Part shown: positions 46,029-50,617 of the stretch, one piece after another
Numbering within the stretch: position 1 is the stretch's first letter
Layout of the letters: every line of letters starts with the position of its first letter
NCBI GenBank assembly: GCA_946482325.1
Contig: CAMLRA010000006.1
Span: 5,565-69,564 of the forward strand
Source of the DNA: an uncultured Chromatiaceae bacterium
GTDB taxonomy: Bacteria > Pseudomonadota > Gammaproteobacteria > Enterobacterales > Alteromonadaceae
Reading direction: 5' to 3'
Length of the DNA stretch: 64,000 bases
Notes under the pieces: model-generated
What the model saw: only the letters and a program-made list of their open reading frames with translations
Told to the model about the DNA's origin: nothing
Databases searched by the model: none
Position numbers and translations under genes: made by a program

Positions 46029-47924
46029 TCAGAATCTGTTACTGACTTTCAGCTCAATCTCCCAGCTGTCGACGCCGGGCGCACTCGTCATTGGGGTCGA
46101 CAAATCGATGTGCACCACGTGGTTGTTGCTGGATTTGGACGAATAAATCCGCATGCCAACGCCGACACTGCCGAGCCAGCGGTCGGTCAGGTTTTGCCGT
46201 AATAGGTCGCTGTTGCTACGGTAGATGGCATCCATGGGCGGCGGCGGAGCCATCGGTGTCAGCATATCCAGGCCCGGTGGCAGCGCGAAGCGCGCCGCGA
46301 TGGCTGCCGGATTCAGTTGTGCCGGGTCAGCGACAGTACCGCCATTAACTCGGCCGAGGTCGGCAAAAGCGACAAAACCAACATCAAGCATTTTGTACAG
46401 GTTGATACGCGGATACCAGCGCAGCTCGCTGGTCAGCACCGTTTTACTGATGCCGTGCTGATACTGCAGTGGATAACCGCGCAGCCCGCTGTCACCGCCG
46501 AGTTCCAGCGGCAGGTCGGCAAAATTGCGGTTACGCCGCGTCAGTTCGGCTTTGTTATACCAGGTAAAATCGCGATTGAGCTGATAAAAATCTTCCGCCT
46601 GAAAGCGCCATTCGCGTAAATCACCGCCTTGCAGGCCATCGATGAAATCAACACCGCCTTCGAGTAACACCAGATGCTGGCGATCGCCAAAACCTTTGCT
46701 GCTGTGACCAATCAGCCGGTACCCCAGTGACGTGTCCGCCTGCAGTTTACTGCTTTGTACGCCGGCTTTCAGACTATGGTGCCAGCCGAGATTCACATCC
46801 TCGGCGCGGTCAATAAACAGGATGTCCTGCAACACCCGGTAATCATGCTGTTTGTATTCAACACCGACCCAGGGATAAGCCCAGCTGCGGTCTTGTGGTA
46901 ACGCCAGCGTGGGTTGGCCGGGCATTAACAGCTGCGACGCCGGTGCAAAACGCCAGTCTTCACTGAGTATGCCGGCCAACAGCCGGGTCGAGGCGTGGTC
47001 CTGATAAGACCACAACATGCCGGCGCTGAGGTCGATGCGGCGGTGATCAGTTTCAAAGATATTTTCCAGCGCGCCGTTATGAAATACCTGGGTTTGTTGC
47101 AGGTCGCTCAGCCATTCCGTGCGGTACATCCAGCGACTGTCGTCCTGATAAAACGGCTTTTCCAGTTGCAGCTGCTGTACATGACCGTCGTCATTGTTGG
47201 TCCATTCAGCGGTCAGGTAGCTGTGAGCAAACCAGTCGTCACCGGCTGAGTCAGTGACCAGCGACAGCGGCATCTCCAGTTTAAATTCGTAGCCGCTGCG
47301 CTGGGCGTCACTTTGGTATTTCACTGAGGTGCGCACCCCGAAACCGAGGAAATTATCTTCTTTAAAACCAAATGCATACTTGTTCTGGCCGCCACTGCGG
47401 CCGAGACCAAAAGAAGGCAGCAAGCTCCAGTTGTCTGACGTTTCCACCACCACGTCATAACTTTGGTCGGCGTTGCAGGTCGGGCTTAACCGCACTTTGG
47501 CATCATGCAGATATGATTTGTTGCGCAGCAAGCGTTCGGCTTCCGCCAGATCGCTGACGCTGATTTCCTCGCCGCTGGCAAAAGGTAATTCGCGTTTGAC
47601 TGTGTCGGGACGGGTGGTGACGTGCGCCCAGTTAGCAAAATGGTGCAGCCAAATGGCATCAGCATCTTCGACAAAAATCGGCTCAGTGCGAATGTGGATT
47701 TGGCCGACGCGGATGCGGCGGTCATCGGGAGTGGTTGCTGCCGCGTCTTTGTTGTCTTTGCTGCGGGCTGGTTTTTTATGGAGCCAGTCACAGAACAATT
47801 CACTGGAGACTGGCTCCACTTGTTGTGGGGTTTCGCCGGCAACAGCGCCGCCTGAGACGAACAGCAAAGGGGCCATTGCGCTGCAAAGTGCACAATGCAA
47901 CACCGATAAACGCAGGGACTGCAT
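46029..47924 (-). CDS. Omp85-superfamily outer-membrane protein (BamA/TamA-like, one POTRA)
   Basis: A 631-residue protein with a signal peptide and one POTRA-like region (about 65-160, GQIHIRTEPIFVEDADAIW through ERLLRNKSYLHDAKV). A 16-stranded barrel follows (FGLGRSGGQNKYAFGFKEDN, SVGVGMRIYSSKSSNNHVVH) and ends in a C-terminal Phe (KVSNRF), as in the bacterial surface antigen family. The role is unknown; many are outer-membrane insertases or scaffolds. It is the third gene of the PAP2-EptA operon, with GGAGG just before the ATG inside the end of the upstream gene. It may help place or accommodate modified lipid A, which is inference. Confidence 0.8.
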   Translation of the reverse strand: MQSLRLSVLHCALCSAMAPLLFVSGGAVAGETPQQVEPVSSELFCDWLHKKPARSKDNKDAAATTPDDRRIRVGQIHIRTEPIFVEDADAIWLHHFANWAHVTTRPDTVKRELPFASGEEISVSDLAEAERLLRNKSYLHDAKVRLSPTCNADQSYDVVVETSDNWSLLPSFGLGRSGGQNKYAFGFKEDNFLGFGVRTSVKYQSDAQRSGYEFKLEMPLSLVTDSAGDDWFAHSYLTAEWTNNDDGHVQQLQLEKPFYQDDSRWMYRTEWLSDLQQTQVFHNGALENIFETDHRRIDLSAGMLWSYQDHASTRLLAGILSEDWRFAPASQLLMPGQPTLALPQDRSWAYPWVGVEYKQHDYRVLQDILFIDRAEDVNLGWHHSLKAGVQSSKLQADTSLGYRLIGHSSKGFGDRQHLVLLEGGVDFIDGLQGGDLREWRFQAEDFYQLNRDFTWYNKAELTRRNRNFADLPLELGGDSGLRGYPLQYQHGISKTVLTSELRWYPRINLYKMLDVGFVAFADLGRVNGGTVADPAQLNPAAIAARFALPPGLDMLTPMAPPPPMDAIYRSNSDLLRQNLTDRWLGSVGVGMRIYSSKSSNNHVVHIDLSTPMTSAPGVDSWEIELKVSNRF

Positions 47925-47926
47925 AC

Positions 47927-49609
47927 TTACCTCCTGCTGCAGGCAGCAAACAGATTCAGTTCGGGCCGGAAGTCGGTACTTGCACGGCTAAACAATACCG
48001 GCAAGCTATGAAATAAATGGTCGTGGCTAAGCGTCTGTTTTTGCTGCTTCTTCAGACAATCATAACTCAGCCGCGGGCCGTTTGCTGCCCCATGTTCTGA
48101 CCCAAAATGCTGAGCAAAACTTTGTGACATCCACCAAATCAACGGGACGCCGGTTTGTGCTTTGGGAGCCATCCAATACGGCAGACCATGCAGGTACACG
48201 CCGTTTTCACCGAGCGATTCGCCGTGATCAGAAACATACATCATGGCGCTGTCCGGTATTTGCTGCAGCTGCCCAATGACACTGGCAACTAAGTTGTCGG
48301 TCGCCAGCAAGCTGTTGTCATAAGCATTGATAATATGTTGTGGTGGGCAGTGATTCAGTTCTTTGTCGGTGCATTCCGGGCCAAATACTTTTTGCTGCAC
48401 TGTACTTCTGCGGAAATATTCCGGGCCGTGGCTGCCAAGCTGGTGCAGCACAATAATCCGGTCTTTGCCTGTCGGCTGTGCCAGTTCGCGCTGCAGTGCC
48501 TGTAGCAGGATGGCGTCGGTGCAACCTTCGGCCTGGCATTCGGGTAATTCAAATAACATCTCGTGTTTGACCCGGTCACAAACGCCTTTGCAGCCGGAAT
48601 TATTGTCATACCAGCTAACGTCCACACCGCTGCTTTGCAGAATATCCAGCACATTGCTGCTGTTTTTGGCGGTGGTTTCGTCATAGTGCTCGCGGCCCAT
48701 CCAGGAGAACATACAAGGCACTGAATGCGCGGTGGCGGTGCCACAGGAACTGACCTGACTGAAGCTAATGACCGGTAACTGGCTTAACCGCGGATTAGTC
48801 GGCCGGCTGTAACCATTCAGTTGAAAATGGTCAGCGCGGGCGGTTTCACCAAGCACCAACACCAGGGTTCTGGGGGCTGCTGTGGGGGCCAGATTGCGTA
48901 CATCAGTACCAAGCACCTGAAAAGTGGGCGGAAAATGCGCCGCAATTTGTTGTTTGGTCACAGAAATACTGGCCGACAGCGGGCTGATGGGCAAGGCGAA
49001 GAACTTTACGTCGCGGTAGTTACGGAAAAAGCTGGCAAGTTCTGCATATTGCGTTGCGGCCACAGCGCCGATGCCGCTTAACAGCAATAGCAGCGTCAGC
49101 AACCACTGGGCGGCACCACGACGCCAGGATTGGCTTTTAAACACAATTTTTAAGTTGAGCCAGCCAAGCAGCACTAGCCAGCCGGCAGTGGTAACAATTA
49201 AATCCGGATTGAGCAAACCGCTGGCTTCGGCAACGTCAGTTTCCAGCACGTTTTGCAACATTGACCGGTCAATCACAGTGCCAAAGTGGCTGATAAAATA
49301 ATGGCTGATGGCTGCGATGAGAAACAATCCAGACAGCAAACCCCGTTGCAGTCGTGGTAAACCCGGCAGGCTCAGCAATACAAACACCAGACTATTCAGT
49401 AACCACAAAACCAGCAGCAGAACTGCCTGCAGGCCATACTGCCCCGGGATTTTTTGCTGCACTTGCGCCAGAAAGGGGGCGCAAAAAAGCACAGTGCTGA
49501 GTGCAGCCAGTAGCAGCGCATAGACGCGTGGTTGCAGGGTAAAACGCGCGGTTTTGCTTAAGAAAAAACTTTGGGTGCGTTGTAGCCAACTGATAGCTAA
49601 ACCTGTCAT
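47927..49609 (-). CDS. Phosphoethanolamine transferase (EptA-like)
   Basis: A 560-residue inner-membrane protein with five N-terminal helices (about 15-200) and a periplasmic alkaline-phosphatase-like domain. Metal and nucleophile regions are visible: LVLGETARADHFQLNGY, SCGTATAHSVPCMFS carrying the catalytic Thr (291/293), VSWYDNNSGCKGVCDRV, HQLGSHGP and YVSDHGESLGENGVYLHG. Paired cysteines match the EptA/MCR group. It transfers phosphoethanolamine from phosphatidylethanolamine to lipid A, which lowers binding of polymyxin and cationic peptides. The start at 49609 overlaps the PAP2 stop (ATGA) and has AAGGA 8 nt upstream. Control by PmrA is suggested by the upstream box. Confidence 0.92.
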   Translation of the reverse strand: MTGLAISWLQRTQSFFLSKTARFTLQPRVYALLLAALSTVLFCAPFLAQVQQKIPGQYGLQAVLLLVLWLLNSLVFVLLSLPGLPRLQRGLLSGLFLIAAISHYFISHFGTVIDRSMLQNVLETDVAEASGLLNPDLIVTTAGWLVLLGWLNLKIVFKSQSWRRGAAQWLLTLLLLLSGIGAVAATQYAELASFFRNYRDVKFFALPISPLSASISVTKQQIAAHFPPTFQVLGTDVRNLAPTAAPRTLVLVLGETARADHFQLNGYSRPTNPRLSQLPVISFSQVSSCGTATAHSVPCMFSWMGREHYDETTAKNSSNVLDILQSSGVDVSWYDNNSGCKGVCDRVKHEMLFELPECQAEGCTDAILLQALQRELAQPTGKDRIIVLHQLGSHGPEYFRRSTVQQKVFGPECTDKELNHCPPQHIINAYDNSLLATDNLVASVIGQLQQIPDSAMMYVSDHGESLGENGVYLHGLPYWMAPKAQTGVPLIWWMSQSFAQHFGSEHGAANGPRLSYDCLKKQQKQTLSHDHLFHSLPVLFSRASTDFRPELNLFAACSRR

Positions 49610-50397
49610 GACAAGGTTCCTTGTCTTGTGATGGCTGTATGACCCGGTGACAGCATGAGTTTGATTTTGTCGCGCAGCAGAGGCCAATAAGCGCACAGGC
49701 ACGCCATGCTCCAACACCACAACGCACTGGCGATGTCGTGCGAGATAAAATGGGCGCCGCGCAATTGCTGTACCAATCCAAGAATCAATCCGAGTGAAAT
49801 GCTAAAAATCAGCGCAGGACGAGCCAGTCGTGGATACAGTTGTAAGCAAAAGAAGTACAAACCGAGCCAGGCGAAACCGATGCTGGCATGGCCGGCCGGA
49901 AAACAAGCGTTGGGCGCGCGGTTAGCAGGCCAGCTGCTGAACAGACCGGTAAATTGCTGAGTACCACCAAAGGCTTGTAGATCCCAGGGGCAATCCATCG
50001 GCAAGCTGTGTTTCATCAGCGCCACACCAGCCAGACTGAGCGTCAGGCTCAGTAATAAACGGCCATGCGCCTGCTGGTGGCTGCGCGTCCAGCTGCTTGC
50101 CTGGTGAGGGACTGCCACGCCACGCACCCGGCGATATTGCTGCAGACAAAGCCTAAGCAAAAAATGCAGCAACAAAGCGGCGATAAGCCATTGATTTAAT
50201 GTGCGTGCGCCCTGGTGCATCACATCTTCGGTCAGCCAATGATGCTGCAAAGCCCAGCTCTGGCCTTGCAACTGATACCAAAACGCGCTGAGCGCAAAAT
50301 CAAGGTCCAAGCCGTAAAACAGACTAAACAGCACGGTCAGCGCCAGTAAAGGGCGCAGCAACAGTTGTTTGACAGATGGAAAGGCTGACAGCGACAC
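49606..50397 (-). CDS. PAP2-family phosphatase (LpxE-like lipid A phosphatase candidate)
   Basis: A 263-residue membrane protein with about six helices. The PAP2 signatures are CPWDLQAFGG preceded by a Lys (K-x6), NACFPAGHASIGFAWLG, and RGAHFISHDIAS with the catalytic His. Such enzymes dephosphorylate lipid A or undecaprenyl pyrophosphate. A PAP2 gene directly upstream of an EptA gene recalls the LpxE-EptA pair of Helicobacter pylori, where removal of the 1-phosphate precedes addition of phosphoethanolamine. The start is the GTG at 50397 with GGAG 6 nt upstream. The reading frame starts 50 bp below a PmrA-type box. Confidence 0.8.
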   Translation of the reverse strand: MSLSAFPSVKQLLLRPLLALTVLFSLFYGLDLDFALSAFWYQLQGQSWALQHHWLTEDVMHQGARTLNQWLIAALLLHFLLRLCLQQYRRVRGVAVPHQASSWTRSHQQAHGRLLLSLTLSLAGVALMKHSLPMDCPWDLQAFGGTQQFTGLFSSWPANRAPNACFPAGHASIGFAWLGLYFFCLQLYPRLARPALIFSISLGLILGLVQQLRGAHFISHDIASALWCWSMACLCAYWPLLRDKIKLMLSPGHTAITRQGTLS

Positions 50398-50447
50398 ACA
50401 ATACTCCAACAGACAGCAGGCTATTGCACGCAGCCTAGTGGGGTAGT

Positions 50448-50464
50448 CTTAAAGTAAACTTAAG
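50448..50464 (-). promoter_or_regulatory. PmrA-box match upstream of the lipid A modification operon
   Basis: On the minus strand the sequence reads CTTAAG-TTTAC-TTTAAG, a perfect fit to the PmrA box YTTAAK-N5-YTTAAK. It ends 50 bp before the GTG start of the PAP2 gene and would overlap the -35 region of its promoter. The orientation agrees with the operon. The expected target, phosphoethanolamine transferase, is the next gene. No pmrAB pair lies in the window. Confidence 0.75.
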
Positions 50465-50617
50465 TAAACAAATTATCTGCGGTGGTGCAGCACAGGGCGA
50501 GAAAGCCGGTGTTGAAAGTTTATTTTGCAGGTGAATGTCAGAAGGTCAGTGTTAAAGGTCGGTGGCGCTTTGCTGACCGACCCTACGAAATACAGAAGCT
50601 GGGTGATGCCGGCCGCG

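Follow-up and report, generated by a model that had tools for sequence, protein, structure and literature searches.

The window analysed here, a stretch of 64,000 nucleotides whose source is a Rheinheimera near R. texasensis, carries a perfect PmrA-type box in front of a PAP2-eptA-Omp85 operon. Judged from its sequence context, this box is very probably the activator part of the operon's promoter, and we predict that a regulator of the PmrA/QseB family binds it and activates transcription. The window supplies a well-supported further case of a PmrA box associated with eptA, now in Rheinheimera, and PmrA/QseB-type control of lipid A modification would thereby extend to a non-enteric genus, with a precise promoter geometry. 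The same promoter code also stands before a poorly understood operon headed by a gene of the thermostable hemolysin family, which suggests that this operon is part of the same envelope response; this second lead deserves more attention than the original box finding. The relevant features of the window are the following:

50557..50582, minus strand: inverted repeat GGTCGGTNAGCAAAGCGCCACCGACC, between the upstream deacetylase gene and the box, single copy in the window
50459..50464, minus strand: half-site 1, CTTAAG (whole box letter-identical in genomes G001, G002 and G003)
50448..50453, minus strand: half-site 2, TTTAAG, after the 5-bp spacer TTTAC (5-bp spacing enriched)
50432..50437, minus strand: -10-like hexamer TAGGCT, beginning exactly 10 bp after the box
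49606..50397, minus strand: PAP2 phosphatase gene, first in the operon (Pfam PAP2, 2.8e-11; GTG start at 50397-50395)
47927..49609, minus strand: eptA-type phosphoethanolamine--lipid A transferase gene (Pfam EptA_B_N and Sulfatase; NF028537)
46029..47924, minus strand: Omp85-like gene (BamA model below cut-off; assigned through predicted structure and fold search)

The box, CTTAAG-TTTAC-TTTAAG (CTTAAGTTTACTTTAAG), spans 50448-50464 on the minus strand and consists of two YTTAAK half-sites arranged head to tail and 5 bp apart, as defines a PmrA box; in a motif scan it was the sole perfect match in the window. The initial annotation had described a YTTAAK-N5-YTTAAK motif free of mismatches and situated 50 bp before the first gene, and both points stand, the distance from the box to the in-frame GTG being exactly 50 bases. 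A GTG also occupies the corresponding position in R. texasensis (L001) and in the related locus L002. Both of these loci likewise possess the inverted repeat, with one base changed, which is probably a terminator or a repeat; an Rfam scan of the window returned no match at gathering thresholds.

The three genes behind the box are tightly packed on a common strand, with the eptA ATG overlapping the PAP2 stop (ATGA), and the described PAP2-EptA-Omp85 operon is confirmed. The EptA protein scores 522.2 bits against NF028537 (cut-off 500). The same protein scores below the cut-off of the equivalog EptA model (431.8, cut-off 660). The first gene product matches the general Pfam PAP2 family and remains below the cut-off of the lipid A phosphatase model NF028538 (PAP2_lipid_A; 78.4, cut-off 275). 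The third gene product resembles BamA and TamA in its predicted fold: a structure model with a mean pLDDT of 83.8 matches these Omp85 proteins with E values down to 4e-14 and TM scores of 0.29-0.43 among the matches listed, and the model reads as a putative beta-barrel preceded by a short N-terminal part with a single POTRA-like domain. It differs from BamA and TamA in that shorter N-terminal part, in yielding no Pfam match and in scoring 34.8 against the BamA model TIGR03303 (cut-off 297). Relative to R. texasensis (DSM 17496), EptA is 88% identical over the best segment and the Omp85-like protein 95% identical.

By itself the loose motif is weak evidence, and the case rests on conservation and promoter geometry. 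With chance estimated from 300 Markov simulations of the window, YTTAAK-N5-YTTAAK arose at a mean of 0.11 per simulated window (at least one match in 28 of 300), and its genome-wide counts in three relatives were not above those of a reversed control (12 vs 15, 10 vs 15 and 10 vs 10); the loose consensus was therefore rejected as evidence. These two observations are what speaks for a chance match without regulatory role, an explanation that cross-species conservation, spacing and -10 geometry render very improbable. The strict form YTTAAG-N5-YTTAAG arose at a mean of 0.027 per simulated window (5 of 300), and none of the 300 simulated windows contained a strict box with TANNNT at +10. The concern raised at the outset, that the motif might be equally frequent at random sites, thus applies to the loose consensus, which is no commoner than its control, whereas the strict form passes.

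Spacing provides a second line of evidence. When CTTAAG-Nx-YTTAAG was searched with x from 1 to 9 in 11 genomes picked for their EptA relatives, 38 places were found at x=5, whereas the other eight spacings gave 8.4 on average and never more than 11; these counts are not independent, since the genomes are related. The excess at x=5 was seen in three Rheinheimera (14 vs 0.75) and in five Arsukibacterium-type genomes (16 vs 4.0), with weak enrichment in three Pseudoalteromonas/Thalassotalea genomes taken singly as a group (8 vs 3.6). The full promoter pattern YTTAAG-N5-YTTAAG-N10-TANNNT matched 62 times in 22 genomes of the genus, at least once in every one, against 0 in the reversed control; in this total, sites matching on both strands count twice and the genomes are related.

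An alignment of the window with R. texasensis and L002 displays a conserved box region amid diverged flanks. Elsewhere in the genus, outside G001-G003, eptA was located at 22 places; two partial ones were set aside, and 19 of the 20 evaluated have a PAP2-eptA pair whose PAP2 ORF lies 35-72 bp behind the box. The sole exception, L289, has eptA without PAP2. Of these 19 boxes, 18 are followed by TANNNT at a distance of 10 bp, and an Omp85 gene lies behind eptA in 8 of the 20. In G003, a MAG, the box (L076, C136:2365; L077) adjoins a transposase-like ORF and is on a different contig from pap2, through either a leader insertion or an assembly effect.

A wider set comprised 78 eptA loci, 75 of them with the ORF (all except L110, L118 and L121): 64 derive from 148 genomes sampled evenly across the order (E to 1e-100), and the other 11 were EptA-relative loci. 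A perfect N5 box on either strand between -400 and +150 of eptA was present at 19 of the 75, with at most one locus for each other spacing from 0 to 11; with one mismatch allowed the numbers rose to 32 for N5 and at most 9 for other spacings, and 43 loci of the wider order had no box near eptA even then. Three of these 43 are the Rheinheimera loci L001-L003, scored as misses since the box there stands before PAP2 or, in G003, on another contig. Of 29 eptA boxes within 120 bp, 16 have TA...T at an offset of 10 bp, other offsets reaching at most 3.

The boxed genes of neighbouring species include an LTA-synthase-like transferase and dgkA, and within the genus the LTA-synthase-like gene is boxed at 13 of the 15 loci displaying it; the remaining two are truncated where the stretch ends. 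As an order-wide target, LTA-synthase-like genes were rejected: of 39 places, 30 were scored, and 4 of these 30 were boxed at up to one mismatch. Omp85 was likewise rejected as a general target, with 0 boxes within 1500 bp at 13 Omp85 loci away from eptA, which came from 13 genomes out of 33 that gave a match. An Omp85 gene near eptA was found in only two genomes of the order-wide draw (G001 and G083), a count from which contig ends may hide more.

None of the window's ORFs, whose starts were inspected by eye, was recognised as a regulator gene. Relatives contain two candidates, here designated RR-A and RR-B, and from these relatives we infer that such regulators occur in the window's strain. 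RR-B (C5:882914 in R. texasensis) is found in all 22 genus genomes at 79-100% identity. RR-A (C5:497523 in R. texasensis) has boxes in the region before its gene, and the genes divergent from it resemble, by eye, an RND-type efflux cluster; its orthologues, 58-63% identical to an Arsukibacterium protein, occur in 11 of the 22 genomes. E. coli PmrA and QseB fall together with RR-A and RR-B in one clade supported at 97/92, the inner order of which is weak. RR-B groups with E. coli QseB (support 81/82), and RR-A with the regulator of an Arsukibacterium dgkA-PAP2-eptA-RR-HK locus that itself has boxes; in three of five cases the box before eptA deviates at a single base. RstA is disfavoured as the regulator, as both candidates fall in the PmrA/QseB clade, away from E. 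coli RstA. Among solved structures the closest relatives of RR-A are the BasR/PmrA chains 8jo2 and 4s04, the nearest being 8jo2_H, E. coli BasR.

The residues N188, H193, H195 and N196 of PmrA are implicated in base contacts or specificity by PMC3973317. RR-A retains all four, with K153 replaced by R and T187 by S; RR-B has Ser instead of H195, and in G001, where 16 others were found, the 13 OmpR-family regulators put to the comparison all lack at least one of the four. These residues bear on a possible but less likely explanation in which RR-B alone, a QseB-like regulator encoded in the thermostable-hemolysin operon, controls the box with no dedicated PmrA. Its presence throughout the genus and its grouping with QseB agree with this, as do six genomes without an RR-A orthologue in which eptA is boxed all the same (G162, G165, G166, G168, G172 and G173), RR-B being the sole match at E 1e-40 in G162, G168, G172 and G173. 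In such genomes either RR-B can be sufficient, at least in some of them, or RR-A was missed in incomplete assemblies. Against control by RR-B alone, RR-A keeps the PmrA specificity residues, occurs in each of the three close relatives and is confined to genomes with eptA (11 of 17 vs 0 of 5; Fisher two-sided 0.035, for related genomes); an additional regulator, 40% identical to RR-B, exists in G165 and G166; and the QseB consensus, as quoted in PMC10729948, is unlike the box. With control by a PmrA/QseB-family regulator as the preferred reading, the question of which of the two acts becomes testable.

Another explanation follows the enteric model, with a true PmrA orthologue that would switch the operon on in response to polymyxin, Fe3+ or low Mg2+. 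The classic target gene and the box accord with it, and among NCBIfam models PmrA (NF007928) ranks first for both regulators, yet at 209.6 for RR-A and 245.3 for RR-B, below the cut-off of 330. We consider this explanation unlikely, because the tree leaves PmrA/QseB orthology undivided and because of the properties of the associated kinases. HK-A and HK-B both score higher with the QseC than with the PmrB model (206.5 vs 148.3 and 208.1 vs 182.7, all below cut-off), and HK-B scores equally with a heavy-metal sensor model. From hydropathy, the hydrophobic stretches lie about 166 residues apart in HK-A and 125 in HK-B, against 54 in PmrB and 148 in QseC, so that the periplasmic part of both kinases, roughly 100-150 residues, is longer than that of PmrB. 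The iron motif of PmrB is ExxE, of which HK-B has none, HK-A one, the Arsukibacterium kinase three and QseC one; since QseC also has it, the motif decides nothing.

The initial annotation had gone further than the operon, to polymyxin-responsive lipid A remodelling under PmrA in a non-enteric gammaproteobacterium. What survives of this is the PmrA-type box before PAP2-eptA-Omp85 and the kind of regulator: all 22 genus genomes have a PmrA/QseB-type regulator, and the conserved box, the 5-bp spacing and the fixed -10 agree with control of this type. Its identity as PmrA does not carry over, given the sub-threshold scores and the undivided tree, nor does the polymyxin, Fe3+ or low Mg2+ signal; the kinases fit QseC better than PmrB, and a polymyxin response is accordingly not established.

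For control by a PmrA/QseB-family regulator, the sequence suggests the following course. Phosphorylated RR-B, which is genus-wide, and/or RR-A where present would bind the half-sites as a head-to-tail dimer, matching the PmrA binding mode of two half-sites in head-to-tail orientation 5 bp apart (PMC3973317). If the hexamer is set at -12 to -7, the box would reach from roughly -39 to -23, substituting for the -35 element, in which case the activator dimer would touch sigma region 4. The regulator would then recruit sigma-70 RNA polymerase to TAGGCT, with transcription expected to start near 50425. EptA would add phosphoethanolamine to lipid A as its presumed substrate, the PAP2 enzyme would probably remove phosphate from lipid A, or from a lipid related to it, and the outer membrane would be where the Omp85 protein acts. 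DgkA recycles the diacylglycerol that EptA sets free (PMC12064563).

Comparison with known systems places the Rheinheimera promoter between established types. It shares with the E. coli and Salmonella PmrA (BasR) promoter of eptA/pmrCAB the box consensus, as quoted in PMC10729948 and with half-sites given in PMC3973317, the 5-bp spacing and eptA as a target; E. coli eptA has CTTAAGGTTGGCTTAAT upstream. It differs from the enteric system in that eptA is joined with PAP2 and Omp85 genes in a window without a recognised regulator gene, in that the kinases of relatives are more QseC-like, and in the second regulator of the genus. QseBC (PreAB) is similar in its response regulator and histidine kinase; the E. 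coli qseB-ygiW intergenic region (L060, 1677-1829) contains a PmrA-type box with one mismatch, and in Salmonella the targets of PreA and PmrA are reported to overlap (PMC2653508). It differs from the Rheinheimera system in the QseB consensus noted above and in the location of RR-B inside the thermostable-hemolysin operon. Vibrio dgkA-eptA under RstAB or CarRS, as described in PMC12064563, offers a parallel in two-component control of eptA together with dgkA, whereas RR-A and RR-B sit in the PmrA/QseB clade and not with E. coli RstA, in a tree built without CarR. Within the literature searched, no papers were found that join any two of PmrA box, eptA and Rheinheimera.

The most constant association of the box lies elsewhere. 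In R. texasensis, RR-B belongs to a gene row headed by a box of the same type, in the order thermostable hemolysin family protein (PF12261), AMP-ligase, haem-oxygenase-like enzyme, SDR, TPR-like protein, response regulator, histidine kinase, cupredoxin and others. PF12261 occurs in 31 of the 148 genomes drawn from the order. At the thermostable-hemolysin loci (L057, L162-L191 and L222-L241), an N5 box with up to one mismatch precedes the gene in 28 of the 30 scored (of 32 places) and a perfect one in 16 of 30; other spacings reach at most 4 with one mismatch and at most 1 when perfect. For 22 of these 28 boxed loci, the ATG furthest upstream follows the start of the box by 58-68 bp. Among boxes within 120 bp, TANNNT follows at an offset of 10 bp in 19 of 28, other offsets reaching at most 4. 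When 23 boxed loci were viewed more widely, some stretches ended early and the first gene was visible in 21, 15 of which have a PmrA/QseB-type regulator within the row. The coupling of the box to the thermostable-hemolysin operon is tighter than that to eptA. As far as our searches reach, this coupling is undescribed: in the literature searched no paper mentions "thermostable hemolysin" together with "PmrA", and the titles and abstract starts of the matches listed gave no link between them.

On balance, and with modest conviction, we favour the interpretation that YTTAAG-N5-YTTAAG-N10-TANNNT is an ancestral, order-wide PmrA/QseB-type code defining a regulon. Its most constant target would be not eptA but the self-regulating operon for the thermostable hemolysin family protein, AMP-ligase, haem-oxygenase-like oxidase, SDR, TPR protein, regulator and QseC-like kinase, and that operon would make a lipid-like product tied to envelope defence. 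To this core Rheinheimera would have added EptA, PAP2, the LTA-synthase-like transferase, DgkA and, through the eptA operon, Omp85.

Boxes were also observed at a few additional places. In the Arsukibacterium-type loci L063, L006 and L009 they stand beside a VIT-family transporter gene as well, and in L063 also beside a second RR-A-type regulator. The full box and -10 pattern precedes unnamed genes at several places, for example on G165:C1, G168:C55 and G166:C33; such matches at L300, L301, L312 and L323 mark possible further members of the regulon.
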